A stretch of 64,000 bases of DNA from assembly GCF_000814825.1 (NCBI RefSeq), contig NZ_CP009302.1, forward strand, positions 310,001 through 374,000, written 5' to 3'. The notes under the pieces are model-generated. The model saw only the letters and a program-made list of their open reading frames with translations. It was not told the DNA's origin and made no database searches. A program made the position numbers and the translations under genes. Shown piece by piece: positions 325 through 16,153 of this stretch (positions within the stretch are counted from its first letter, which is position 1; the number at the start of each line of letters is the position of its first letter). This DNA is from Berryella intestinalis. Its GTDB lineage: Bacteria; Actinomycetota; Coriobacteriia; Coriobacteriales; Eggerthellaceae.

Positions 325-1254
325 ATGGCTGAAATCATCGTTGCAATACTGCAGGCGCTCGTTCTGGTTCTGATAGCGCCGCTGTTCTCGGGAATCGCCC
401 GCTGGCTGCGCGCGAAGATACACACGCGCCGCGGTCCGTCGATCTTCCAGGACTACTACGACATCTTCAAGCTGCTCACGCGCGAAGATCTGCGCACGGC
501 GAATTCGAGCTTCGTCTCGCGCCTTATGCCGCCGCTGTACTTCGCGACCATGCTCGTGCTTGCGTGCGGGGTCCCCATGTTCACGCGCGCGTGCCCCGTT
601 CCCGCGCTCGGGGACATCATCACCATCATCTATCTGCTGGCCATCCCGCGCTTCTTCTTCGCGCTGGCCGCCGTCGACAGCTCCAGCGCCTATGGCGGCA
701 TCGGCGGCATCCGCGAACTCATCATCGGCGTGCTGGTCGAGCCGTCCATGATGCTCGCGCTGTTCGTGGCGGCGCTCGCCACGGGCACCACCAACATCGG
801 CGGCATGGGGGAGGCCATCGGCTCTCTGATGCAGTCCTCTCCGGTCGCCGTCATCGTGGCCGGCGTCGCGTTCGCCATCGCCTGCTACATCGAGCTGGGC
901 AAGCTTCCCTACGACGCGGCCGAGGCCGAGCAGGAGATCCAGGAAGGTCCGCTGCAGGAGTACTCCGGTCCCTCCCTGGCCATGCTCAAGGTCGCCATGT
1001 CGATGAAGCAGATCCTCGTCATCGCCTGGTTCCTGGCGATATTCGCGCCCTTCGGAAGCGCGGTGGAGTTCGCTCCGCTCGCCGTCTTGCTGGGCGCCTG
1101 CGCGTTTTCAACCAAAGCCGGCGTCGTCGGCATCGTGTGCTCGCTTATCGAGAACTCGGTGTCCCGCGTGCGCTGGAAGTACATGGGACGGCAGACATGG
1201 ATGGTCGTCGGCGTTTCCGTCGTGGCCCTCGTGTTCTGCGTCCTGGGAATTTAA
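325..1254 (+). CDS. hyfC: Hydrogenase-4 membrane subunit HyfC (NuoH-like)
   Basis: A 309-residue, very hydrophobic protein of the HyfC/HycD/NuoH family, which anchors the hydrogenase peripheral arm to the membrane arm. The N-terminal stretch IARWLRAKIHTRRGPSIFQD and the later acidic loop (EAEQEIQEGPLQEYSG) are family hallmarks; the acidic loop corresponds to the cytoplasmic loop facing the catalytic arm. I chose the ATG at 325 because AGGAGG (312-317) sits 7 bases upstream. The frame is open further upstream, but that region is inside hyfB. It lies between hyfB and hyfD in canonical order. Length matches E. coli HyfC (about 315 residues). Confidence 0.92.
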   Translation: MAEIIVAILQALVLVLIAPLFSGIARWLRAKIHTRRGPSIFQDYYDIFKLLTREDLRTANSSFVSRLMPPLYFATMLVLACGVPMFTRACPVPALGDIITIIYLLAIPRFFFALAAVDSSSAYGGIGGIRELIIGVLVEPSMMLALFVAALATGTTNIGGMGEAIGSLMQSSPVAVIVAGVAFAIACYIELGKLPYDAAEAEQEIQEGPLQEYSGPSLAMLKVAMSMKQILVIAWFLAIFAPFGSAVEFAPLAVLLGACAFSTKAGVVGIVCSLIENSVSRVRWKYMGRQTWMVVGVSVVALVFCVLGI

Positions 1255-1272
1255 GGGGAGGTGGAAGCGAAT

Positions 1273-2733
1273 ATGATGGCTACATTGAACGCCCTTTCCC
1301 TCCTCTCCCTTGCCTCGGTGCTGGTGCCGTTCGTTGCGGCGCTGATCATCGTGGTGAGCCCGAGGCGATTCGCGAAGGGCATCTGCATCTCGGCTGCGGC
1401 TATCGCCACGGCGCTCACGCTGGGCGTGTGGTCCCAGCTCGCCGGTTCGGGTAGCGACTCTCTGGTCGTGAACTTCCTGGCGCTGAACGACGTTGCCATT
1501 TTCGGTTTCGTGTTCGACAAGGTAAGCGTCCTTCTGGCTCCGTGTTTCGTCGGCATCGGCCTGCTCATCTCCATCTACTCGGTGGGCTACCTCAACGCCG
1601 GCAACCGCGAGCACGCCGATGCGCCGCGCCGCCGGTTCTACGCGTTCTTCACCGTGTTCATCGGCGCGATGGCCGGCTTGGTGTACTCGTCCACCGTGCT
1701 GGGACAGCTTGTGTTCTTCGAGGTCACGGGCGCTTGCTCGTGGGCCCTCATCGGCTACTACGACACGGAGACGGCCCGCAAGTCCGCCATGAAGGCCCTC
1801 ATCCTCACGCATATCGCGTCGTTGGGCCTGTACGCGGCCGCCGGCATCCTGTTCTTCAACACCGGCACGTTCGAGACCTCGGCCATCGCCGGTCTGGGCG
1901 AGTCGGCGAAGACGGCCTGCCTGATCCTCATCCTCATCGCGGCATGGGGCAAATCGGCGCAGCTGCCGTTCTACATGTGGCTGCCCTCCGCCATGGAGGC
2001 TCCCACGCCCGTTTCCGCGTACCTGCACGGCGCCTCGATGGTCAAGGTGGGCGTCGCGGTGTTCGCGCGCGCCCTCATCGGTGCGGGGACCGTGCCCCTG
2101 TCGGTCGGTTGGGTCGTCGTCGTGGGCGGTATCCTCACCTGCCTGTTCGCCTTCTTCATGTACCTTCCCCAGAAGGATATGAAGCGCCTGCTGGCGTTCT
2201 CGACCATCTCCCAGCTGGCCTACATCTTCCTGGGCTTCGGGTTCTACATCTTCGGAAGCGACCTGGCGCTGCAGGGCAGCGTGATGCACATCTTCAACCA
2301 TGCGTTCACCAAGACCCTGTTCTTCCTGATCGCCGGTGCGTTCAGCTACACCATGGGAACGCGCATGCTTCCCAAGCTCAAAGGCGTGCTGAAAAAGCAG
2401 CCGCTTCTGGGCGTCGGGTTCGGGATCGCGGCGCTTTCCATCGCGGGCGCCCCTCCCATGAACCTGTTCTTCAGCAAGTACGTGATCTTCTGCGGCGGCA
2501 TCGAGGCGGCGGGCTCCAACCCGATCCTCATGGCGATCGTCATCATCGCGCTCATCGAGACGATCGGGTGCTTCGCCTGGTTCCTCAAGTGGACCGGATC
2601 GGTCCTGTTCGGCGAGCCGTCCGAGACCGTGGCGAAGTCCCAGGCGGTGCCGCGGCCCATGGTCGCCGTGTTCGTCGTGCTGATCGTCATGGTGATGGCT
2701 TCCAGCTTCATCGCCGCTGCATGGCTGGGTTAG
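1273..2733 (+). CDS. hyfD: Hydrogenase-4 antiporter-like subunit HyfD
   Basis: A 486-residue polytopic protein of the proton-conducting transporter family (NuoL/M/N, MrpA/D). The conserved core FYMWLPSAMEAPTPVSAYLH, with the following Lys-containing helix, and the later HIFNHAFTKTLFFL helix carry the Glu/Lys/His residues associated with proton transfer. It is a membrane-arm subunit of the hydrogenase. The ATG at 1273 (or 1276) is preferred over an in-frame GTG at 1261 because GGAGGT at 1257-1262 is placed to serve it. It sits 18 bases after hyfC and 12 before hyfE. Confidence 0.9.
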   Translation: MMATLNALSLLSLASVLVPFVAALIIVVSPRRFAKGICISAAAIATALTLGVWSQLAGSGSDSLVVNFLALNDVAIFGFVFDKVSVLLAPCFVGIGLLISIYSVGYLNAGNREHADAPRRRFYAFFTVFIGAMAGLVYSSTVLGQLVFFEVTGACSWALIGYYDTETARKSAMKALILTHIASLGLYAAAGILFFNTGTFETSAIAGLGESAKTACLILILIAAWGKSAQLPFYMWLPSAMEAPTPVSAYLHGASMVKVGVAVFARALIGAGTVPLSVGWVVVVGGILTCLFAFFMYLPQKDMKRLLAFSTISQLAYIFLGFGFYIFGSDLALQGSVMHIFNHAFTKTLFFLIAGAFSYTMGTRMLPKLKGVLKKQPLLGVGFGIAALSIAGAPPMNLFFSKYVIFCGGIEAAGSNPILMAIVIIALIETIGCFAWFLKWTGSVLFGEPSETVAKSQAVPRPMVAVFVVLIVMVMASSFIAAAWLG

Positions 2734-2745
2734 GGGGTGGACACC

Positions 2746-3399
2746 ATGACTGGATTTACCTTGGTTAACGTTCTGGGGGGTCTGCTGATCGTCACGTCGA
2801 TGATGGTGGTCCTCGCCAAGAAATCGAAGACGGCGGCGTACTGCTACGCCGTCCAATCGCTCGTGCTGGTGCTCTCGTTCGTGACCCTGGGGGCCACGAC
2901 GGGCTCTACCGAGCTGTTTACCTGGGCCGGCACTGCATTCATCACGAAGGTGCTGGTCGTTCCCGGTATCATCCTCTACCTGTCCAACAAGGTGGGGGAT
3001 GCGGGGGCCGCGCTCGAGCCGCGCGTGAACAAGTCGGTTCTCCCGATCATCATCGCGGTCGAGGTCGCGGTGTGCTTCGCGGCGGTCCAGGGGGTTTCGC
3101 TTCCCACCGCCCTCGAGGTCAAGCCCGCGCTCGCTATCTCGCTTGCGCACTTCTTCATCGGCCTGACCTGCATCGTCACGCAGAGAAACATCGTCAAGCA
3201 GATCTTCGGCTACTGTCTGATGGAAAACGGCTCGCACCTGACCCTGGCTCTGCTCGCGCCCAACGCGCCCGAGCTGGTCGAGGTGGGCGTGGCCACCGAT
3301 GCGTTCCTCGCCGTCATCATCATGGCGGTCGTGGCCTACCGCATCCACAAGGTGGCCGGCACGTTGGATGCCGAAGACCTCATGGAACTGAAGGGTTAG
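2746..3399 (+). CDS. hyfE: Hydrogenase-4 membrane subunit HyfE
   Basis: A 217-residue protein of small hydrophobic helices, close to the 216 residues of E. coli HyfE. The second half resembles NuoK-type subunits (helix with GYCLMENGSHLTLALL). The start is the ATG at 2746 behind a GGGGGTGG ribosome-binding site; an in-frame GTG at 2737 lies inside that site and is unlikely. Function follows from the family and position: part of the proton-translocating membrane arm. The C-terminal tail (HKVAGTLDAEDLMELKG) is charged and probably cytoplasmic. Confidence 0.9.
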   Translation: MTGFTLVNVLGGLLIVTSMMVVLAKKSKTAAYCYAVQSLVLVLSFVTLGATTGSTELFTWAGTAFITKVLVVPGIILYLSNKVGDAGAALEPRVNKSVLPIIIAVEVAVCFAAVQGVSLPTALEVKPALAISLAHFFIGLTCIVTQRNIVKQIFGYCLMENGSHLTLALLAPNAPELVEVGVATDAFLAVIIMAVVAYRIHKVAGTLDAEDLMELKG

Positions 3400-3409
3400 G
3401 GGGATGATT

Positions 3410-4999
3410 ATGGATTACGCATCGCTTTTGATGACGCTGATCGCAGCCCCGCTGCTCTTCGCGCTTCTGATGGCGGTTCTGCCGTCCAAGGCCGTTCCGC
3501 GCCCGGTGTACGAGGCGATTCACGTCGCATCCATCGCCGCCGTGCTGGTTTTGTCGCTGTACGTGGTCGCCCAGGTGTTCTCGTCGGGGCACTCCGTGGA
3601 TGCGCTGGGGCTGTGGCTGCACCTCGATGCGCTGGGAAGCGTGTTCGTGGCGCTGATCGGCGTGATCGGGTGCCTGACGGGCATCTACTCGATACCCTAC
3701 ATCCGCCACGACGTCGAGACGGGTCATATGACCCCCGCCCGCGTCAAGCAGTTCTACGTGTTCTTCAGCCTGTTCCTGTTCACCATGCTGGTGGTCGCCG
3801 CCTCCAACAACATCATCCTGATGTGGGTGGGCATCGAGGCGACGACGCTGTCCACCGTGTTTTTGGTGGGCGCCTACGACGCCAAGCTCTCGCTGGAGGC
3901 CGCGTGGAAATACGTGGTGGTCTGCACGGCCGGCGTCGCGTTCGGCCTGTACAGCACGGTGCTCATCTACGCTAATGCCGCCGATGTGATGGCAAACGCG
4001 CACGAGGCGGTCCTGTGGACCTCCGTCGTGCCCTACGCCGCGCAGCTCGACGGAGCGCTGGTGCAGATCGCGTTCGTGTTCGCCGCCATCGGCTTCGGCA
4101 CCAAGGCCGGATTGTTCCCCATGCACACCTGGCTTCCCGACGCCCACTCCGAGGCTCCCAGCCCCGTGTCGGGCCTTCTGTCGGGCGTCCTCCTGAAGTG
4201 CGCGATGCTCATCATCATGCGCTTCTATATCCTGGCGGTTCAGGCGGTCGGTCCCTGGTTCCCCCAGACGGTCATGCTGATCATCGGCATCGTCTCGGTA
4301 TTCATGGCCGCGCTCGCCGTGTTCTCGCAAGACGACCTCAAGCGCAAGCTCGCGTACCACTCGTGCGAAAACGTCGGCATCGTGGCCCTGTTCCTGGGCT
4401 TCGGCGGTCCGCTCGGCATCGCCGCCGCGCTTCTGCACTGCATCACCCACGGCTTCACCAAGGCGCTTCTGTTCTGCATCTCCGGCAACGTCCTCATGAA
4501 GTACGGTACGCGCGACCTCAACAAGATCAGCGGCATCCTGAAGACCATGCCCGCGACGGCCGTCCTCATGGCCATCGGGTTCTTCGCCCTGGCGGGCTTC
4601 CCGCCCTTCGCGATGTTCGTCTCCGAGATCACCGGCATCGTTTCCGGTATCCAGGGCGGGCATTGGGCGATCATCGCGCTGTTCGTGGTCGCGCTCACCA
4701 TCGTGGTGGCGGCCTGCGCCCACGTCGTCACGCAGGCGGTGTTCGGCAAGGCTCCCGAGGGTATGGAGAAAGGCGATGTCAGCCCGCTTGCCCTCGTTCC
4801 CGAAGTGGTGCTGGTCTGCCTGATCCTGTGGTTCGGCGTGGCCATGCCCCAACCGGTGCTCAACGGCATCGAGGATGCGACGGCCATCGTCTTGCAAGAC
4901 GACGGCGCCGTTCTCCACGACGTGCCGTTGTTCGATCAGCTGCTCAATCCCGACCAGGGCGCTTCGGCTCCCGGGTCTTCCACCGTGCGTCATAACTAG
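3410..4999 (+). CDS. hyfF: Hydrogenase-4 antiporter-like subunit HyfF
   Basis: About 529 residues with roughly 14 predicted membrane helices; E. coli HyfF has 526. Family signatures include IGFGTKAGLFPMHTWLPDAH, the HSEAPSPVSGLLSG helix and the HCITHGFTKALLFC helix. It is the third antiporter-like ion channel of the membrane arm. Two ATGs lie close together (3404 and 3410). I prefer 3410 because the G-run at 3399-3403 gives it normal spacing. The tail after about residue 495 is hydrophilic. Confidence 0.9.
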   Translation: MDYASLLMTLIAAPLLFALLMAVLPSKAVPRPVYEAIHVASIAAVLVLSLYVVAQVFSSGHSVDALGLWLHLDALGSVFVALIGVIGCLTGIYSIPYIRHDVETGHMTPARVKQFYVFFSLFLFTMLVVAASNNIILMWVGIEATTLSTVFLVGAYDAKLSLEAAWKYVVVCTAGVAFGLYSTVLIYANAADVMANAHEAVLWTSVVPYAAQLDGALVQIAFVFAAIGFGTKAGLFPMHTWLPDAHSEAPSPVSGLLSGVLLKCAMLIIMRFYILAVQAVGPWFPQTVMLIIGIVSVFMAALAVFSQDDLKRKLAYHSCENVGIVALFLGFGGPLGIAAALLHCITHGFTKALLFCISGNVLMKYGTRDLNKISGILKTMPATAVLMAIGFFALAGFPPFAMFVSEITGIVSGIQGGHWAIIALFVVALTIVVAACAHVVTQAVFGKAPEGMEKGDVSPLALVPEVVLVCLILWFGVAMPQPVLNGIEDATAIVLQDDGAVLHDVPLFDQLLNPDQGASAPGSSTVRHN

Positions 5000-5008
5000 G
5001 AGGCGATC

Positions 5009-6739
5009 ATGGATAACGTAACCACACCCGCGCGCCCCGGAACGACGCATGTGCAGGCCGTTCGCGAGAGGTTCCCGGGGGTCCTCAAGTCGGCCGAATG
5101 GCAGTGCGAGGACCAGGTGACCATCACGGTCGCCCTGGACTCCCTGCCCGACGTGGTCGAGTTCCTGTACTTCGGCCGCGGCGGCTGGCTGCCCATGATG
5201 GTGGGCAACGACGAGAGGCCCCTGAACGGCCATTACGCTTTGTACTACATCCTGTCCATGGAGGAAGAGGATCGCTGCTGGTGCGTCGTGCGCGTCGAGG
5301 TTCCCGCCGACACCTGCGAGTTCCCGTCGGTGACGCCGCGCGTCCCGGCATGCGTGTGGAGCGAGCGCGAGGTGCGCGACCTGTTCGGCCTGCGCCCCAT
5401 CGGCCTGCCCGACGAGCGCCGTCTGGTGCTGCCCGACGACTGGCCCGACGACCTGTACCCGTTGCGCAAGGACTCCATGGACTACCGTCAGCGCCCGATG
5501 ATCGCCAGCGAGGTCGAGAACTACGAGTTCCTCGCGGAGACGGGCGATCGCGAGACCACCGTCGTGCCCATGGGCCCGCTGCACGTCACGTCCGACGAGC
5601 CGGGGCACTTCCGCCTGTTCGTCGAAGGCGAGCACATCATCGACGCCGACTACCGTCTGTTCTACGTCCATCGCGGCATGGAGAAGGTGGCCGAGTCGCG
5701 CATGAACTACGACGCCGTCACGTTCCTGGCCGACCGCGTCTGCGGCATCTGCGGCAACGCCCATTCGGTGGCCTACGCCGAGTCGGTCGAGCACGCCCAG
5801 GGCATCGCGGTTCCCCTGCGCGCCCAGTACATCAGGGCCATCTCGCTCGAGGTGGAGCGCATGCACTCCCACCTTCTGAACCTGGGCCTCGTGTGCCACT
5901 ACAGCGGCTTCGACACCGGGTTCATGCACTTCTTCCGCGTGCGCGAGGATTCGATGCGCTTGGCCGAGCTGCTGACGGGCCACCGCAAGACCTACGGGCT
6001 GAACCTCATCGGCGGCGTGCGCCGCGACATCCTGGAGGATCGCCGGTCCGAGACGCTGCGGGTCATCCGCAAGCTGCGCGACGACGTGAAGGCCCTTCTG
6101 GACGAGCTGATGAGCACGCCCAACTTCGAGGACCGCACCAAGGGCGTCGGCAAGCTCGATCCCAAGATCGCACGCGCGTTCAGCCCGGTGGGGCCGTGCG
6201 TGCGCGGTTCGGGGTTCGCGCGCGACGTGCGCTTCGACCACCCCTTCGACGGGTACAAGGACATCCAGGGCCTGTTCAAGGCCCGCAGCCACGACGGATG
6301 CGACGTCATGAGCCGCACCCTCGTGCGCATCGAGGAGTTCATGGACTCGGTGGCGATGGTCGAATGGTGGCTTGAGAACATGCCCAAGGGCGCCATCCTC
6401 AACGAGGATTGGAAGTACGAGCCGCACAAGTTCGCCATCGGCTACACCGAGGCTCCGCGCGGCGAGGACGTCCACTGGGCGCAGATCGGCGACAACCAGA
6501 AGTGCTACCGCTGGCGCTGCAAGGCGGCCACGTACAGCAACTGGCCCATCCTGCGCTACATGTTCCGCGGCAACACCGTTTCCGACGCGGCTCTGATCGT
6601 GGGTTCGATGGATCCGTGCTACTCCTGCACCGACCGCGTGACGTTCGTGGACGTGAAGAAGGGCACCGAGAAAACCGTAAGCAAGTCGCAGCTCGAGTCC
6701 TACTGCTTGAGGCGCACCCATTCGCCGCTGAAAGATTAG
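5009..6739 (+). CDS. hyfG: [NiFe]-hydrogenase large subunit HyfG/HycE (group 4)
   Basis: A 576-residue catalytic large subunit. The N-terminal ~170 residues are the NuoC-like domain and the rest is the NuoD/large-subunit domain, the fusion typical of HycE/HyfG. The Ni-Fe ligands are visible as CGIC (Cys245, Cys248) and DPCYSC (Cys537, Cys540). Arg543 follows in the context CTDR-V, the expected cleavage point of the maturation protease. That leaves a 33-residue C-terminal extension, almost the length known for HycE. AGGAGG at 4998-5003 fixes the ATG. It produces or oxidises H2 on the cytoplasmic side. The matching protease is encoded 1.8 kb downstream in the same operon. Confidence 0.96.
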   Translation: MDNVTTPARPGTTHVQAVRERFPGVLKSAEWQCEDQVTITVALDSLPDVVEFLYFGRGGWLPMMVGNDERPLNGHYALYYILSMEEEDRCWCVVRVEVPADTCEFPSVTPRVPACVWSEREVRDLFGLRPIGLPDERRLVLPDDWPDDLYPLRKDSMDYRQRPMIASEVENYEFLAETGDRETTVVPMGPLHVTSDEPGHFRLFVEGEHIIDADYRLFYVHRGMEKVAESRMNYDAVTFLADRVCGICGNAHSVAYAESVEHAQGIAVPLRAQYIRAISLEVERMHSHLLNLGLVCHYSGFDTGFMHFFRVREDSMRLAELLTGHRKTYGLNLIGGVRRDILEDRRSETLRVIRKLRDDVKALLDELMSTPNFEDRTKGVGKLDPKIARAFSPVGPCVRGSGFARDVRFDHPFDGYKDIQGLFKARSHDGCDVMSRTLVRIEEFMDSVAMVEWWLENMPKGAILNEDWKYEPHKFAIGYTEAPRGEDVHWAQIGDNQKCYRWRCKAATYSNWPILRYMFRGNTVSDAALIVGSMDPCYSCTDRVTFVDVKKGTEKTVSKSQLESYCLRRTHSPLKD

Positions 6740-6749
6740 GTGATCGGAT

Positions 6750-7286
6750 ATGCTGAAAACACTGCGCAACGCATTCAAAACCGGGGACGCGACGGTCAAG
6801 TACCCCTTCGCGCCCCTGGAGACCGTGCCCGATTTCCGCGGCAAGCCCGAGCACGACCTGGAGCGCTGCATCGCGTGCGCCGCTTGTGCCGTGGCCTGCC
6901 CGCCCAACGCCATCCAGATGGCGACCGATTTGAAAGCTGGTACGATTACCTGGTCCATCGACTACGGCCGCTGCATCTTCTGCGGCCGATGCGAGGAAGC
7001 CTGCCCGGTCGAGGCCATCAGGCTGGGAGACGAGTTCGAGCTTGCCGTCATGAGCAAGGCCGACCTCACCGAGGACGCGACCTACACCCTCGAGCGCTGC
7101 TCGGAGTGCGGGCGCTACTTCGCTCCGCGCAAGCAGGTCGACTACGCCTGCCGTGTGTTGGCGACCCTCGAGGGGAATACCGAGGCCGACGAGTCCATCG
7201 AGGTCGCGCGCGTGTGCCCCGAGTGCAAGCGCCGCGCCGATGCGGTGAGCGCCCTGGCCGCCGCCCGTGCTGAAGGAGGCAGATAA
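6750..7286 (+). CDS. hyfH: Hydrogenase electron-transfer ferredoxin subunit HyfH/HycF
   Basis: A 178-residue NuoI-like protein with two classical 4Fe-4S motifs: Cys40/43/46/50 (CIACAACAVACP) and Cys75/78/81/85 (CIFCGRCEEACP). A C-terminal region has two further CxxC pairs (CSECGRYF, CPECKRR) that could bind zinc or a third metal centre, as in HycF. It passes electrons between the formate/ferredoxin side and the small subunit. The start lies 10 bases after hyfG; the stop TAA overlaps the next ATG by one base, which points to translational coupling. Confidence 0.94.
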   Translation: MLKTLRNAFKTGDATVKYPFAPLETVPDFRGKPEHDLERCIACAACAVACPPNAIQMATDLKAGTITWSIDYGRCIFCGRCEEACPVEAIRLGDEFELAVMSKADLTEDATYTLERCSECGRYFAPRKQVDYACRVLATLEGNTEADESIEVARVCPECKRRADAVSALAAARAEGGR

Positions 7287-8071
7287 TGAGTGAACTGGTG
7301 CTTCCCGAGCGCTTGCAGACCCGGCTTGAGCCCATCGAGCTCGACGCCAAGATCCAAGAGGCGAAGGCGGCTCTGCTGGGCAAGATCAAGCGCTCCGTCT
7401 ACATCTACCGCGTCGACTGCGGCGGGTGCAACGGGTGCGAGATCGAGATCTTCGGCACCATCACGCCGGTGTTCGACACCGAGCGCTTCGGCATCAAGAA
7501 CATGGCCAGCCCGCGCCACGCCGACATCCTGGTGTACACGGGTGCGGTGACGCGCGCGATGCGCCTGCCGGCCCTGCGCGCCTACGAGGCCGCACCCAAT
7601 CCCAAGCTGGTCGTATCCTACGGCGCCTGCGGCTGCACGGGCGGGATCTTCCACGACAACTACTGCGTGTGGGGCGGCACGGACAAGCTCCTGCCGGTGG
7701 ACGTCTACATCCCGGGCTGCCCGCCCTCGCCTGCGCAGACCATCTACGGCTTCGCCATCGCGCTGGGCCTGTTGGGTCAGAAGCTCCACGAGACCCACCT
7801 GGTCGAAGGGGAGGGCGAGCAGGCGCCCATCCTGCACGGCGACGTGCCCTACAAGCTGAAGGTCGAGCTCGAGCAGGAGGCGCGCAAGCTGGCGGGCTAC
7901 CGGTACGGGCGCGATCTGGTCAACCAGTTCATGGACACCCTCGATCCGGCGTCGGGCGACGTGCTGTCGTCGGTTAACGGGCTGATCCATGCCGAGAGCG
8001 ACCCGCGCAAGGTGGAGATCTTCGCCGAACTGAAGGATATTCTGGAGAAAAGGATCGTGAGCATCGCGTAA
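7286..8071 (+). CDS. hyfI: [NiFe]-hydrogenase small subunit HyfI/HycG
   Basis: A 261-residue NuoB-like small subunit. Ligands for the proximal 4Fe-4S cluster are visible in DCGGCNGC (Cys48, Cys51), GACGCTGG (Cys115) and PGCPPSP (Cys145). It lacks the long Tat signal and extra clusters of periplasmic uptake-hydrogenase small subunits, as expected for a cytoplasm-facing group 4 enzyme. The C-terminal ~80 residues are a charged extension (EGEGEQAPILHGDVPYKL onward). Start and stop each overlap a neighbour by one base. Confidence 0.95.
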   Translation: MSELVLPERLQTRLEPIELDAKIQEAKAALLGKIKRSVYIYRVDCGGCNGCEIEIFGTITPVFDTERFGIKNMASPRHADILVYTGAVTRAMRLPALRAYEAAPNPKLVVSYGACGCTGGIFHDNYCVWGGTDKLLPVDVYIPGCPPSPAQTIYGFAIALGLLGQKLHETHLVEGEGEQAPILHGDVPYKLKVELEQEARKLAGYRYGRDLVNQFMDTLDPASGDVLSSVNGLIHAESDPRKVEIFAELKDILEKRIVSIA

Positions 8072-8565
8072 TGGCAACTGCTGATTACAAGGCCGGGGAA
8101 AACCGCATGGAGTCCATCGGGACGTCGGGGGACCACATCGTGTTCTACCTGCTTCGCATGAAGTTCGTGGACCGCGCGGAGGCGATCCCCGACGACGCCC
8201 AGGACGTGCTGTACTACACCTTGTCCGTCGGGCACCATACCGGCGTGGTGGATTGCTTCGAGCGGGCGCTTTCGGTCCCCGTCGAAAGCTACCGCAAGAT
8301 CGCGGCGCTCTTTGAAAACGCGGAGGCTCGCCGTAAACTGGAGGGCGTGTTCAAATTCGGCGAGATCGAGATCGGGAAGGAGCACATCGGCGTGCTCCTT
8401 CCCGCCGCCCGCGCGGCGCTCTCGACCATCGACGTGTACGATGCGCCGGGCAAGACCAGCCTTCCGCTCGAAGTCGGCGAGCTCGACTACCTGGTCGGGC
8501 TGGTCGACCTGCTGCTTAAAGTAAGGGACGAAACGAACGTCTACCTCATGGTTAGGAGGGGTTGA
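8071..8565 (+). CDS. hycH: HycH/HyfJ-type formate hydrogenlyase maturation protein
   Basis: A 164-residue soluble protein whose central region (VFYLLRMKFVD, then DVLYYTLSVGHHTGVVDCFE) matches the HycH family. HycH is needed for hydrogenase-3 maturation in E. coli, but its biochemical role is not settled. It is somewhat longer than E. coli HycH (136 residues), mainly at both ends. The ATG at 8071 overlaps the hyfI stop. An internal ATG at 8107 would also keep the conserved core. No metal-binding motif is obvious. The assignment depends on both similarity and position. Confidence 0.8.
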   Translation: MATADYKAGENRMESIGTSGDHIVFYLLRMKFVDRAEAIPDDAQDVLYYTLSVGHHTGVVDCFERALSVPVESYRKIAALFENAEARRKLEGVFKFGEIEIGKEHIGVLLPAARAALSTIDVYDAPGKTSLPLEVGELDYLVGLVDLLLKVRDETNVYLMVRRG

Positions 8566-9098
8566 TGAGCGAAGCGCCGCACGACGGCGATGTGCGCTGC
8601 GAGGGGCCCGGGGGCGAAGCCTCGTCGGCGGGCGCGCCGCCGCGCAACATCGTGTTCACGGCGGGAAGCGTGCTGCGCGGCGACGATGCCGCCGGTCCGA
8701 TGCTCGCCAAGATGCTCCAGGACGACCCGGTGGCGGGTTGGGAGGTCGTCGATGGGGGGCAGACTCCCGAAGACGACCTGTACTACATCCGCGAGGTCGC
8801 TCCCGCGCGCGTGCTGTTCGTCGACGCCGCCCAGATGGGCGTCGAGGTCGGAGCCATCAGGAAGATATCCGTGGGCGACGTGGCCGACAGGTTCCTGTTC
8901 ACCACGCACAGCCTCCCGGTTACCTTCCTTCTGAATCGGATGGCCGAATACTGCTCCGACATCACCTTCCTGGGCGTCCAGGTGCGCTCGACCGAGTTCT
9001 TCGACCCGCTTTCTCCCGAGGTCGCATCCGCTGTCGAGACGATAGCGCAGTGCGTGCGGGAAGGGGGGAACTTCGACAGGTTCGAGTCCATGGCGTAG
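8565..9098 (+). CDS. hycI: Hydrogenase maturation endopeptidase HycI
   Basis: A 177-residue nickel-dependent aspartyl-type protease that removes the C-terminal peptide of the large subunit after nickel insertion. The family metal-binding residues are in GDDAAGP (Asp40/41), the FVDAAQMG segment and TTHSLP. A low-complexity extension of about 27 residues (Gly/Ala/Glu-rich) precedes the domain. The ATG at 8565 overlaps the upstream stop (TGATG), with TAGGAGG in front. Its partner is surely the large subunit at 5009-6739, which keeps a 33-residue C-terminal extension. Confidence 0.92.
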   Translation: MSEAPHDGDVRCEGPGGEASSAGAPPRNIVFTAGSVLRGDDAAGPMLAKMLQDDPVAGWEVVDGGQTPEDDLYYIREVAPARVLFVDAAQMGVEVGAIRKISVGDVADRFLFTTHSLPVTFLLNRMAEYCSDITFLGVQVRSTEFFDPLSPEVASAVETIAQCVREGGNFDRFESMA

Positions 9099-9151
9099 CG
9101 TTCGAGAGTTGCGAGGGTTCGTTTCAACACACGATGAAGGGACGGGATGTT

Positions 9152-9979
9152 ATGAATTCTGAGGACGTCAAACTGGTGAAGCCGGATGCGCTCGGCCCGG
9201 CCGAGATCGAGGCGAAGGCCGAGACTTTGGCTGTGGGCAAGACCAAGATGACTCCGGCGAAAACGTTTGTGGCCGCAATGCTCGCCGGAGCGTTCATCGC
9301 GTTCGGCGGCATGTACTTCTGCGTGTTCCTGGGTGATTCGACCATGCCGTTCGCGGCGCAGCGCATGGTGGGCGGCATCTGCTTCTGCCTGGGCCTCGTT
9401 CTGGTCCTGTGCTGCGGCTGCGAGCTGTTCACCGGCAACTCGCTGATGGTCGCCGCCAAGGCTTCGGGGAAGATCTCGTGGGGCCAGATGCTGAAGAACT
9501 GGGGTATCGTCTGGGTGGGTAACCTGGTGGGATCCCTCCTGGCCGTGTTCCTCATCTACATGGCCCAGGTCTATATGCTGAACAGCGGCGGCGTGGGCAC
9601 GGCCATGGTGGGCGTGGCGGCCGGCAAGGTCGCGCTGGCTCCCGAGACCATGTTCTTCAAGGGCATCATGTGCAACATCTTCGTGTGCCTGGCGGTGTGG
9701 ATCGGCTTCGGCGCGCGCACCACGGTGGACAAGGTCATCGGCATCCTGCTTCCCATCTCGGCCTTCGTGGCCGCCGGCTTCGAGCACTGCGTTGCCAACA
9801 TGGCGTTTCTGCCCATGGGGCTTTTGCTGAACACGGTTGCGGGCGTCGGAACCCCGGGCGCGGTCACGCTGGGCGGCGTGGCCCTCAACCTGGCCATCGT
9901 CACGCTGGGCAACGTCGTGGGCGGCGGCCTGGTGGGCATCGCCTACTGGTTCACCTACGGCAAGCGCGAGCAGGCTTAA
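9152..9979 (+). CDS. focA: Formate/nitrite channel, FocA family
   Basis: A 275-residue pentameric-channel protein of the FNT family with six hydrophobic segments. The signatures are CELFTGNS in the first half and the FEHCVANM segment that holds the central pore His. Its position right behind a Hyf hydrogenase parallels focB after the hyf genes of E. coli, so formate is the likely substrate; nitrite or hydrosulfide channels of the same family are the alternative. I take the ATG at 9152 because AAGGGA at 9137-9142 gives normal spacing; an ATG at 9134 is in frame but lacks one. The gap to hycI is 53 bases with no clear terminator, so co-transcription is likely. Confidence 0.9.
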   Translation: MNSEDVKLVKPDALGPAEIEAKAETLAVGKTKMTPAKTFVAAMLAGAFIAFGGMYFCVFLGDSTMPFAAQRMVGGICFCLGLVLVLCCGCELFTGNSLMVAAKASGKISWGQMLKNWGIVWVGNLVGSLLAVFLIYMAQVYMLNSGGVGTAMVGVAAGKVALAPETMFFKGIMCNIFVCLAVWIGFGARTTVDKVIGILLPISAFVAAGFEHCVANMAFLPMGLLLNTVAGVGTPGAVTLGGVALNLAIVTLGNVVGGGLVGIAYWFTYGKREQA

Positions 9980-12571: not shown

Positions 12572-13846
12572 ATGACTGATCGCACCGAAATGTGGACCGA
12601 GCTGGGCATGGACCTCGAAGCGCACGACAACCTGTGCTCGGTGCTTCCCACGGCCTTCGGCGACGTGTTCCTCTCGCAGGAAAACCGGCCGGCCGGGATG
12701 GCGTATTGGGATATGGTGACCGCCGACATCCACGGCATCCGCCCCGCCGAGCTGGTCGAGGCGCAGAAGAAGGGCCGAAAGGTGTTCGGCACGTTTTGCG
12801 TGTACGTTCCCGACGAGGTGGTCGTGGCGTGCGACGGCATCGTCACGGGGCTCTGCGGGGGCTCGCAGTTCTGGGTTCCCGATGGCGAACAGGTTCTTCC
12901 CAGCGACGTGTGCCCCCTCATCAAGGCGTCGGTCGGCGCACGCCTTGGCCGCACCTGCCCGTTTTTCCGCATCGCCGACGTGTTCGTGGGGGAAACCACG
13001 TGCGACGGCAAGAAGAAGGCCTACGAGATCCTCGCGAACGACGCCCCCATGTACATCATGGACGTCCCGCAGATGAAGCGCGAGAAGGACATCGTCAAGT
13101 GGGCGGGCGAGATCGAGGAGTTCGCGGCGATGGTGGAAGAGGTCACCGGAAACGAGCTGACGCCGGAAAACCTCGGCTGCGCCATCAAGGTGATCAACGA
13201 CAAGCGCCGCGCCCTTGCCCGCGTCTACGAGGCGCGCAAATCGACGGTCGCCCCCATCAGCGGCACCGACGCGCTGCTGATGATGCAGATCGCGTTTTTC
13301 GACGATCCGGTGCGCTGCGCCGAGATGTGCAACAAGCTGGCCGACGAGCTGGAGCAGCGCATCGCCGAGGGAGTGAGCGCCATGCCGGCCGGCTCGAAGC
13401 GCATCCTCATCACGGGAACGCCGCTGGCGGTTCCGAACTGGAAGCTGCACCACATCATCGAAACCTGCGGCGCCGTGGTGGCCTGCGAGGAGATGTGCAC
13501 GGGCACGCGCTATTTCGAGAACCTGGTGGACGAGGGGCAGACGACGCTGGAAGGCCAGTTCCGCGCGCTGTCCGAACGCTACATGAAGAACAACTGCGCA
13601 TGCTTCACTCCGAACACGGGGCGCATCGATGACGTCATCCGCCTCGCGCGGGAGTACCGGGTCGACGGGATCATCAACACGAACCTCACGTTCTGCACCA
13701 CGTACAAGCTGGAAGGCCCCGCGCTCGAACGCGCCGTCGAAGAGGCGGGGTTCCCCGTCCTCAACATCGAGACCGATTACTCCGATGGCGACTCCGAGCA
13801 GCTGCGCACGCGCATCGGGGCGTTCGTCGAGATGCTGGGCGATTAG
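12572..13846 (+). CDS. Double-cubane-cluster anaerobic reductase (2-hydroxyacyl-CoA dehydratase family)
   Basis: A 424-residue protein of the HgdB/BcrC superfamily, of the single-polypeptide type known as double-cubane cluster protein (E. coli YjiM group). Characterised members carry an [8Fe-9S] cluster and, when powered by a partner ATPase, reduce small molecules at very low potential; the physiological substrate is not known. Likely cluster ligands include Cys87 and Cys95 (CDGIVTGLCGGSQFW), with more Cys in DVCPLIK, RTCPFF and a second-half region (TCGAVVACEEMC). AAGGAG at 12561-12566 fixes the ATG. It is the first gene of a four-gene unit that ends with the matching activase. No CoA-ester-specific partner subunit is encoded nearby, which argues against a dehydratase. 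Confidence 0.88.
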   Translation: MTDRTEMWTELGMDLEAHDNLCSVLPTAFGDVFLSQENRPAGMAYWDMVTADIHGIRPAELVEAQKKGRKVFGTFCVYVPDEVVVACDGIVTGLCGGSQFWVPDGEQVLPSDVCPLIKASVGARLGRTCPFFRIADVFVGETTCDGKKKAYEILANDAPMYIMDVPQMKREKDIVKWAGEIEEFAAMVEEVTGNELTPENLGCAIKVINDKRRALARVYEARKSTVAPISGTDALLMMQIAFFDDPVRCAEMCNKLADELEQRIAEGVSAMPAGSKRILITGTPLAVPNWKLHHIIETCGAVVACEEMCTGTRYFENLVDEGQTTLEGQFRALSERYMKNNCACFTPNTGRIDDVIRLAREYRVDGIINTNLTFCTTYKLEGPALERAVEEAGFPVLNIETDYSDGDSEQLRTRIGAFVEMLGD

Positions 13847-13847
13847 G

Positions 13848-14156
13848 ATGATCGAGGTCGGGGAGCTGATCGAACGCGCGCGAGCCGACCACCCCGGATG
13901 CGCGATCGATTGCTACCTGCTGTTTTCCAGCAACAACGACGCGATGGAGCTTTTCGGGGAGGCGCGCGCGGCCGGTTTGCCGGCCCGCGTCTCCCCGACG
14001 CCGCGGCAGGCCCGCGCGTGCTGCGGGGTGGCGCTTCTGGTGGGAAGCGACGACGCTGCCGCGGTCGAGCTTCTCGCGCGCGAGCGGGGAATACCGCTCG
14101 AGGGCGTGGCGGCGCTCCCCCGGCAGATCGATCCGTACCGCGATCGCTACTGCTAG
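13848..14156 (+). CDS. DUF3343 protein, putative sulfur/selenium carrier
   Basis: A 102-residue protein that begins one base after the reductase stop. It shows the DUF3343 pattern: an N-terminal beta-alpha unit (CYLLFSSNNDAMEL), a PTPRQ motif, then a Cys pair (Cys58-Cys59, ACCGVALLV) and another Cys at the very C-terminus (Cys102). DUF3343 proteins are annotated as putative Se/S carriers and tend to be encoded near cysteine-desulfurase-like and redox genes. A role in carrying sulfane sulfur between the PLP enzyme downstream and another protein is inference. No membrane segment or signal is present. Confidence 0.75.
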   Translation: MIEVGELIERARADHPGCAIDCYLLFSSNNDAMELFGEARAAGLPARVSPTPRQARACCGVALLVGSDDAAAVELLARERGIPLEGVAALPRQIDPYRDRYC

Positions 14157-14241
14157 CCGTGCGCTTTTTCCGGGAAGGCGGTAGAGTGTGACGAGGGCCC
14201 GTGCGCATGAAGCGCCGCCCGCAAGACGAAGGGACGAGCCG

Positions 14242-15387
14242 ATGATCTATTTCGACAACGCGGCGACCACGCTGATGAAGCCCCCGTCGGTGGCCGAGGC
14301 GGTCGTCCGCGGCATCGGATCGTTCGGCGGTCCGGCGCGCGGCGTCCACGAGGCCTCGATCGCGTCGTCGTTGGCGGTGTACGAGGCCCGCGCGGCGCTC
14401 GCCCGCCTTCTGGGGGCTCAGGGCGCCGGCCGCGTGGCGTTCGGCTACAACGCCACCGATGCGCTGAACGCCGCCATCGAGGGGCTGCTTGCGCCGGGGG
14501 CCCACGCGATCACGACGGCCGCCTCGCACAACTCGGTTCTCAGACCGCTGTACCGCAAGGTCGACCGCGCGGGCGCCGAGCTGTCGATCGCCTCGATCGC
14601 GCCCGACGGCTCGCTCGACCTCGAAGCGTACGAGCGGCTGTTCCGCCCGGAAACGTCCCTGGTGGTTGCCACCCATGCATCCAACGTCACCGGCGACGTG
14701 TACGACGTTCGCCGCATGGCGCGCATCGCCCGCGACCACGGTGCGCTGTTCGTGCTCGACGCCGCCCAGACGGCCGGCGCGTTTCCCGTCGACCTGCAGG
14801 GAGACGGTTTCGACGCCGTCGTGTTCACGGGGCACAAGAGCCTGTTCGGCCCCCAGGGAACAGGGGGCATCGTCCTGTCGTCGGAGATGGAGATCCCGCC
14901 GTATCGCGTGGGGGGATCGGGCACGCACAGCTACGATCGCTCCCACCCGTCGTTCATGCCCGAGCGCCTCGAAGCGGGAACCCTCAATGCGCATGGTCTG
15001 GCGGGCCTCGCGGCGGGCGTCGCCTACATCGAGCAGACGGGCCTCGCCGCCATCGGGGCGCGCGTGCAGAGCCTCGCCCGCCGTTTCGGGGAGGCCGTTC
15101 GCCAGATCGAGGGCGTCCGCATCTACGGAGGCCCCCTCGATGCGCCGCGATGCGGTATCGTTGCATTGAACGTGGGTCGGGCCGACTCGGCCCTCGTGGC
15201 CGATCGGCTGAACGCGGATTTCGGCATCTGCACGCGGGCGGGCGCCCACTGCGCCCCCCTCATGCACGAGGCTTTGGGGACGTCCGATCGGGGAGCGGTT
15301 CGTTTCAGCTTCTCGCATTTCAACACGGAGGAAGAGATCGACAAGGGGGTAGAGGCGCTTGAAGAGATCGCGCGCGGGCTCGTCTAG
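14242..15387 (+). CDS. Cysteine desulfurase / selenocysteine lyase-like PLP enzyme
   Basis: A 381-residue class-V aminotransferase-fold protein. The start MIYFDNAATT is classic for NifS/IscS/CsdA proteins. The PLP Schiff-base lysine is Lys199 (TGHKSLFGPQG). The catalytic Cys is most likely Cys337 in RAGAHCAP, with another at Cys330. It would release sulfur (or selenium) from cysteine as an enzyme-bound persulfide. GAAGGGA at 14228-14234 supports the ATG at 14242. No IscU/SufU scaffold, NifU or tRNA-thiolation gene is adjacent. The neighbours are instead a DUF3343 carrier and a low-potential reductase, so a dedicated pathway rather than general Fe-S assembly is likely. Confidence 0.85.
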   Translation: MIYFDNAATTLMKPPSVAEAVVRGIGSFGGPARGVHEASIASSLAVYEARAALARLLGAQGAGRVAFGYNATDALNAAIEGLLAPGAHAITTAASHNSVLRPLYRKVDRAGAELSIASIAPDGSLDLEAYERLFRPETSLVVATHASNVTGDVYDVRRMARIARDHGALFVLDAAQTAGAFPVDLQGDGFDAVVFTGHKSLFGPQGTGGIVLSSEMEIPPYRVGGSGTHSYDRSHPSFMPERLEAGTLNAHGLAGLAAGVAYIEQTGLAAIGARVQSLARRFGEAVRQIEGVRIYGGPLDAPRCGIVALNVGRADSALVADRLNADFGICTRAGAHCAPLMHEALGTSDRGAVRFSFSHFNTEEEIDKGVEALEEIARGLV

Positions 15388-16153
15388 AAAGCTTGACGAA
15401 CCTCAGTTGAGAACGGCTTCCATCGGCATCGACATCGGGTCGACCGCAACGAAGGTGGCGGTTATGGACGGCACCGAACTGCTCGAGGCGTTCCTGACCC
15501 CGACGGGTTTCAGCAGCGTCGACGCGTCCGAGCGCGTGCTGCGCGAGCTCGAGGCGCGCGGATACGCGGCGGAGGGAAGCGACGTGGTGGCCACCGGTTA
15601 CGGGCGCGTCTCGGTTCCGTACGCCCAGCGCGCCCTCACCGAGATCACCTGCCATGCGCGCGGTGCGGTCTACCTGTTCGAGCGGGACGGCACGGTCATC
15701 GACGTGGGAGGCCAGGACACCAAGATCATCCAGATAGCCGACGGCAAGGTGAAGAAGTTCGTGATGAACAACAAGTGCGCGTCGGGCACGGGCAAGTTCC
15801 TCGAGCTCATGGCCGACCGCATGGGCGTGTCCCAGCCCACGCTGTCCGAGCTCGCGCGCTCCGGGCAGCCCACCCCGATCACCAACGTGTGCACGGTGTT
15901 CGCCGACTCCGAAGTGGTGTCGCTGATCGGTCGGGGAGAGCCGCTGGAAAACATCGCCAACGGGATCATCGAGTCGGTGGTGGGGCGCGTGAGCTCGCTG
16001 GTGGGCCAGCTGCGCAGCAGCGAGTACTACCTGACCGGAGGCCTGTGCGAGAACGACTACGTGGTCGAGCGCCTGTCGGCCCATCTGGGGGCCCCGGTGC
16101 ACACCGCGCCCCGGGCGCGCTTCGCCGGCGCGATCGGGGCGGCGCTCAGCTAG
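15359..16153 (+). CDS. ATP-dependent activase of the double-cubane reductase (HgdC/YjiL-like)
   Basis: An ASKHA-fold ATPase of about 264 residues that drives electrons into 2-hydroxyacyl-CoA-dehydratase-type reductases. The phosphate motifs are IGIDIGSTATKVAVMDG and VIDVGGQDTKII. The homodimer-bridging 4Fe-4S cluster ligands are Cys140 (NNKCASGTGKF) and Cys178 (NVCTVFADSEV). The start is unsure: a TTG at 15359 has GGGGGTAGAGG in front and overlaps the previous gene by 29 bases; a TTG at 15407 would also keep the full domain. The stop overlaps the convergent kup stop by four bases (CTAG). Its partner is almost certainly the reductase at 12572-13846. Confidence 0.9.
   Translation: MKRSRAGSSRKLDEPQLRTASIGIDIGSTATKVAVMDGTELLEAFLTPTGFSSVDASERVLRELEARGYAAEGSDVVATGYGRVSVPYAQRALTEITCHARGAVYLFERDGTVIDVGGQDTKIIQIADGKVKKFVMNNKCASGTGKFLELMADRMGVSQPTLSELARSGQPTPITNVCTVFADSEVVSLIGRGEPLENIANGIIESVVGRVSSLVGQLRSSEYYLTGGLCENDYVVERLSAHLGAPVHTAPRARFAGAIGAALS

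Follow-up and report, generated by a model that had tools for sequence, protein, structure and literature searches.

A four-gene operon of Berryella intestinalis, located in a 64,000-nucleotide stretch of contig NZ_CP009302.1 (positions 310,001 to 374,000 of the forward strand, hereafter the window), very probably has its role in supplying selenium, at the level of SelD or above it. It encodes a double-cubane cluster protein (DCCP), a carrier protein of the DUF3343 family, a pyridoxal phosphate (PLP) enzyme resembling cysteine desulfurases (CSD), and the activase of DCCP. The following features were identified.

12572..13846, + strand: DCCP, 424 amino acids, of an ATP-driven low-potential reductase family (NF040772; 49-50% identity to 6eno/7yyl; eight invariant Cys)
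13848..14156, + strand: DUF3343 / Se_S_carrier protein, 102 amino acids (PF11823 match; predicted ferredoxin-like fold)
14022..14024, + strand: codon of Cys59 of the DUF3343 carrier (34-sequence alignment)
14124..14153, + strand: IDPYRDRYC, the carrier's C-terminal arm, its last residue being Cys102 (sequence comparison; low predicted local distance difference test (pLDDT) score)
14157..14241, no strand: 85-base gap between DUF3343 and CSD (sequence read; gene order in relatives)
14242..15387, + strand: CSD, PLP enzyme like cysteine desulfurase / selenocysteine lyase, 381 amino acids (TIGR01977; Lys199, Cys337)
15359..16153, + strand: activase, the predicted ATPase electron donor of DCCP, 264 amino acids (TIGR00241; Cys140, Cys178)

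The CSD, DUF3343, and DCCP genes were found to track selD in a survey of the kind that an earlier note on this DNA had proposed. In three families of the class Coriobacteriia (f1-f3, f1 being the window's own family), CSD and DUF3343 were present in 36/36 genomes with selD and in 0/17 without it (p = 3e-14), and DCCP in 24/36 versus 0/17 (p = 2e-6); in 12 selD+ genomes, the CSD-DUF3343 pair was present without DCCP. Genus g16 alone contained both selD+ and selD- states, and a shared lifestyle is thus disfavoured as the sole cause of this tie. Among 80 DCCP loci from many phyla, picked by DCCP alone, 50 genomes were drawn, of which 47 carried selD. From Bacillota, chosen as the phylum to which a Dorea genome belongs, 199 genomes were sampled evenly, and selD was detected in 64 of the 66 DCCP genomes versus 72/133 others (p = 4e-11); of the two DCCP genomes lacking it, G283 carried selA, and G346 alone was without selD and selA. 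The association recurs in several phyla instead of being confined to close relatives, as the earlier note had allowed it might be, and the selenium link that the note had raised for the operon is supported by this co-occurrence.

The most frequent neighbours recognised at the 80 DCCP loci were the activase (61 loci), DUF3343 (32), a TIGR01977 enzyme (15), selD (10), a cluster of LysR proteins (10), selB (5), and selA (4). The single member of the LysR cluster that was tested matched the selenium-associated family NF040786. At 60 Bacillota DCCP loci, a selenium gene lay within ~5 kb in 16/60 cases, versus 0/20 control regions taken from the same genomes, and DUF3343 or CSD lay within that distance in 19/60 cases versus 0/20 controls. 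The latter result argues against the idea that DCCP reduces small C-N, N-N, or C-C substrates and that the adjacency of carrier and CSD is incidental. The reduction of acetylene, hydrazine, and azide by DCCP in vitro is in its favour, but these reactions have no known physiological role, and the physiological role of DCCP was called unclear in the same report (PMC11971306). We thus regard this explanation as very improbable.

Among the 24 f1-f3 genomes with DCCP, twelve (G015, G021, G024, G033, G046, G084, G086, G088, G094, G104, G110, and G118), all 98-99% complete, carried selD without selA. Selenocysteine (Sec) insertion is thus not needed, and the point at which the DCCP cluster acts is probably selenophosphate synthesis or a step above it. 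For the same reason, a role in selenoprotein repair or Sec insertion was considered unlikely. DCCP was also rejected as a selenoprotein in its own right, in-frame stops being absent from every strong DCCP match.

The earlier note had presented the operon as a candidate for an undescribed pathway. However, Table 1 of Lin et al. 2015 (PMC5322559) already groups as functionally linked genes of Slackia heliotrinireducens the loci Shel_25420 (activase), 25430 (DUF3343), 25440 (Sec lyase), 25450 (YedF), 25460 (DUF3343), and 25470 (2-hydroxyglutaryl-CoA dehydratase), together with 25360 (SelD), 25310 (SelA), and 25300 (SelB). In the parts of that article considered here, DUF3343 was put forward as a chaperone for Se or S, and the dehydratase was left without an assigned role. 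The cluster Shel_25300-25470 resembles the window in its order, from the activase through DUF3343 and Sec lyase to the dehydratase homologue, which corresponds to DCCP. Unlike the Slackia cluster, the window unit lacks YedF and the second DUF3343, and selD (493 kb) and selA (498 kb), with selB, are ~170 kb from the operon (323 kb). Similarly, a dicubane cluster protein was "provisionally linked" to selenium metabolism (PMC10418091), and in the Type I mlp gene clusters of that study DCCP and its reductase are located with selenium genes, whereas no corrinoid methyltransferase was recognised beside the window operon by inspection.

The regions around the cluster were compared in 20 relatives from f1-f3. 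CSD, DUF3343, and YedF were present in 20/20, DCCP in 19, the activase in 18, and selD in 15; in G110, DCCP was found ~40 kb from the cluster. Four f1 genomes (G004, G039, G054, and G070) shared the order DCCP - DUF3343 - YedF - CSD - DUF3343 - activase, with a second DCCP in the cluster of G054, and two others (G074 and G090) had a rearranged order. In 4/6 family members, those with the shared order, yedF occupies the position of the window's 85-base gap, and reading of the gap itself (14157-14241) revealed no YedF. In four genomes (G004, G070, G074, and G090), selA-selB and the cluster were divergently oriented. All four components, DCCP, DUF3343, CSD, and activase, occur jointly in the window, whose genome is selD+, with neither YedF within the unit nor adjoining sel genes; judged by gene content, it is a Slackia-type selenium cluster minus YedF and the second DUF3343, i.e., a reduced variant.

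The four open reading frames are all on the + strand and separated by 1 base, by 85 bases, and then by a 29-base overlap, which supports their reading as one unit in the earlier note. The overlap holds only if TTG at 15359 is taken as the activase start; the codon-usage call favours 15407, which may be the true start, and the overlap would then be gone. No promoter or terminator signal above chance was observed at the operon. The residues that the note had listed were also recovered, namely the motif CDGIVTGLCGG and further Cys in the reductase, the two activase cluster Cys (Cys140, Cys178), and, in the PLP enzyme, Lys199 together with Cys337. In the carrier, only part of its Cys58-Cys59 pair stood up in a 34-sequence alignment, where P52, C59, and G60 were the only invariant columns of the family and Cys58 was not invariant.

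The window reductase scored 475 bits against NF040772 double_cubane (cut-off 350), and its Cys76, 95, 114, 129, 144, 309, 342, and 375 were invariant across both DCCP types in a 12-sequence alignment. Based on these matches, it is a member of the double-cubane family, with a predicted [8Fe-9S] cluster and ATP-dependent reduction. It shares all eight Cys and 49-50% identity with the solved Carboxydothermus DCCP (6eno, 7yyl), which differs in belonging to another clade and in having no adjacent carrier. The operon also matches the superfamily models PF06050 and PF01869, as would be expected if the reductase were a subunit of a 2-hydroxyacyl-CoA dehydratase or benzoyl-CoA reductase in a degradative pathway. 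This is extremely unlikely, given scores far below the dehydratase (108 < 700) and benzoyl-CoA reductase (99 < 454) cut-offs and far over that of NF040772, the absence of a second catalytic subunit, and the selenium neighbourhood. The activase matched TIGR00241 (226 bits, cut-off 125) and the carrier PF11823 Se_S_carrier (56.8 bits, cut-off 25); in the portions of the literature considered, no demonstration of Se or S carriage by the DUF3343/PF11823 family was found. The CSD matched TIGR01977 (EF2568) with 380 bits, barely above the cut-off of 377. The enzyme that gives this family its name, EF2568, is located with selD in Enterococcus faecalis, a species with a described Sec lyase, SclA, and in our own reading the E. 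faecalis SclA is EF2568 itself.

We propose that the CSD would take selenium (or sulfur) from selenocysteine (or cysteine) and load it on Cys59 of the carrier, and that the terminal Cys102 arm may hand it onward in this carrier subfamily. DCCP, driven by the activase at the cost of ATP, would act reductively on a stable selenium compound, organic or oxidised, to liberate the selenium, and selenide would be delivered to SelD via the carrier. Sequence establishes the four genes with their families, the fact that they lie together, and the co-occurrence with selD across phyla, also without selA, and it supports the carrier/desulfurase pair of the earlier note as a probable one. What we infer is the chemistry at each step, which way the chalcogen moves, and that the cargo is selenium and not sulfur. 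Taken as a whole, this explanation has about an even chance of being correct, and reductive release of selenium by DCCP, considered as a step, is a tentative proposal that we would put somewhat short of even. Within the wider family, chalcogen removal has a precedent in 4-thiouridine monophosphate desulfidase, an enzyme counted in part with the DCCP family (PMC11971306). Because the operon is a trimmed copy of a selenium cluster, selenium chemistry comes first among the reactions to test for the window DCCP.

Several points weigh against this proposal. The release of selenide from perselenide requires no very low potential, and many DCCPs, such as the solved Carboxydothermus type, have no adjoining carrier. 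The CSD, although related to SclA according to its profile scores, is not classed as SclA, as it falls below the cut-off of the selenocysteine lyase model NF040779 (298 < 525). Co-occurrence by itself does not show chemistry, and the genomes in the co-occurrence tests are related, so that the p-values given above overstate their independence. Finally, judging from its sequence contexts, the pair of TIGR01977 enzyme and DUF3343 can serve sulfur too, because genomes in which selD was not detected also carry it next to HydE.

In several Bacillota (L121-L127; e.g., L121:3307-4584 on the - strand and L124:5063-6358 on the + strand), DUF3343 formed the N-terminal domain of a radical S-adenosylmethionine protein, and the fusions in L121 and L124 scored as the H-cluster maturase HydE. 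Their neighbours were HydG (L121, L126), HydF (L126), and a TIGR01977 enzyme in 5/7 loci; this fusion of DUF3343 with HydE next to CSD genes is a new detail. In two of the genomes with such a fusion, G251 and G285, neither selD nor selA was detected. It is possible that the HydE-fused DUF3343 acts as a sulfur donor for H-cluster maturation, and we propose a chalcogen-donor pair, TIGR01977 plus DUF3343, common to selenium supply and H-cluster maturation.

These genomes, in which HydE-DUF3343 and CSD occur without detected selD, would also fit an operon that serves an anaerobic pathway by handling sulfur in persulfide form, its tie to selD reflecting a shared lifestyle, and cysteine is the usual substrate of cysteine desulfurases. 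The split of 36/36 against 0/17 within three related families, with both states inside genus g16, and the direct adjacency to selD, selA, selB, YedF, and the selenium-associated LysR nevertheless make such sulfur trafficking improbable. The pair could instead feed sulfur, or bridging selenium, into the [8Fe-9S] cluster of DCCP itself, in which case the tie to selD would reflect selenium in the cluster in vivo. The best support for this explanation is that HydE-DUF3343 beside TIGR01977 places the pair at the assembly of another complex cluster; moreover, DUF3343 adjoins DCCP in 33/35 members of the window's DCCP clade. However, DCCPs outside this clade have no neighbouring carrier or CSD, and the 12 f1-f3 genomes with CSD-DUF3343 and selD but without DCCP indicate that the pair is not solely for DCCP. 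We thus consider cofactor assembly rather unlikely.

A ferredoxin-like fold was predicted for the DUF3343 carrier at a mean pLDDT of 86. The model places Cys59 in a loop, and the C-terminal end, modelled with low confidence, is probably flexible. The C-terminal Cys highlighted by the earlier note is indeed the last residue, Cys102, but the tail is conserved only in a subset of the family. An RD-x-[YF]-C ending, with Cys last, was observed in all of the other f1 carriers encoded next to DCCP (6/6) and at nine Bacillota loci, and was absent from the other DUF3343 copies compared. The arm, conserved and ending in Cys, is a new detail of carriers adjacent to DCCP. A tie between the arm and a neighbouring CSD, suggested by the presence of a CSD at 8/9 arm-bearing loci among the first 80 loci, did not hold up in a second, independent set of Bacillota loci, in which one of 13 adjacent carriers bore the arm and lacked a CSD, and the arm is now treated as a clade trait. 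No solved structural relatives of DUF3343 were found by sequence, and a fold search with the model gave no match below E = 0.001. The DsrC arm is thought to reach the active site of its partner; by analogy, DCCP could be a dedicated selenium enzyme, an ATP-driven reductase freeing selenide from a stable compound, whose active site is reached by the carrier's flexible -RDRYC arm, although we find this distinctly doubtful. If true, this would give DCCP its first physiological role.

Phylogenetic analysis placed the window DCCP in a clade of 35 proteins (Shimodaira-Hasegawa approximate likelihood ratio test (SH-aLRT) support 99), the other members of which are from Bacillota apart from f1; within it, the protein grouped with two Lachnospiraceae and other f1 proteins (SH-aLRT 99). 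Its nesting in an otherwise Bacillota clade suggests acquisition by transfer from Clostridia. The window CSD grouped with the CSDs of Coriobacteriia selenium clusters (100), most of the arm-bearing Lachnospiraceae CSDs forming a separate clade. Inheritance of the operon as a single unit was rejected, since the DCCP and CSD trees conflict; DCCP-DUF3343 and TIGR01977 enzymes were thus joined more than once, which strengthens the functional link.

Selected stretches of the window's genome were also surveyed. At 0.49-0.50 Mb, we found selD (with an in-frame TGA), selB, selA, the C-terminal half of YedF, DUF3343, and tRNA-SeC, and at 1.46 Mb, YedE, a TusA-like protein, and a third DUF3343. A formate dehydrogenase gene (L128:9431-11641; G000:C1:305431-307641) with TGA in frame at the selenocysteine position (NNIDNCARTUHGPTVIGL) lies just outside the window on its upstream side and ends ~15 kb upstream of the operon, and the operon may show how anaerobic gut bacteria get selenium for such enzymes. 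By inspection, apparent formate-hydrogenlyase / hydrogenase-like genes lie downstream of it (window 325-9976), and an apparent gene for a flavoprotein exported by twin-arginine translocation lies between selD and selB at the selenium locus (L119:9984-11453).

In E. coli K-12, yjiM-yjiL-ytiA resembles the window in uniting a DCCP-family protein, an activase, and a DUF3343 protein in one run, and differs in lacking a CSD and, in ytiA, the RDRYC arm. YjiM is of the other DCCP type, with 36% identity to the solved protein and a separate clade. The association of DCCP with selD even without selenocysteine insertion makes the role of DCCP directly testable in this strain. Alongside formate-hydrogenlyase genes, yjiM and yjiL showed some of the strongest changes in a study of transcription factors (PMC9068703), data that are compatible with a selenium role but indirect. 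A Methanococcus selenium paper did not mention the DCCP, DUF3343, or CSD families.

The ytiA gene (L034:1669-1926), annotated as uncharacterised, encodes a DUF3343 protein (PF11823, 48.9 > 25 bits) and overlaps yjiL. The two DCCP types, solved-like and YjiM-like, were often neighbours within one cluster (L131, L140, L142, L148, L077, L078, and L108). In Peptostreptococcus anaerobius (L112:2874-4664), a CSD was fused behind an ATP-pyrophosphatase-like domain (PF01902) directly upstream of DCCP.

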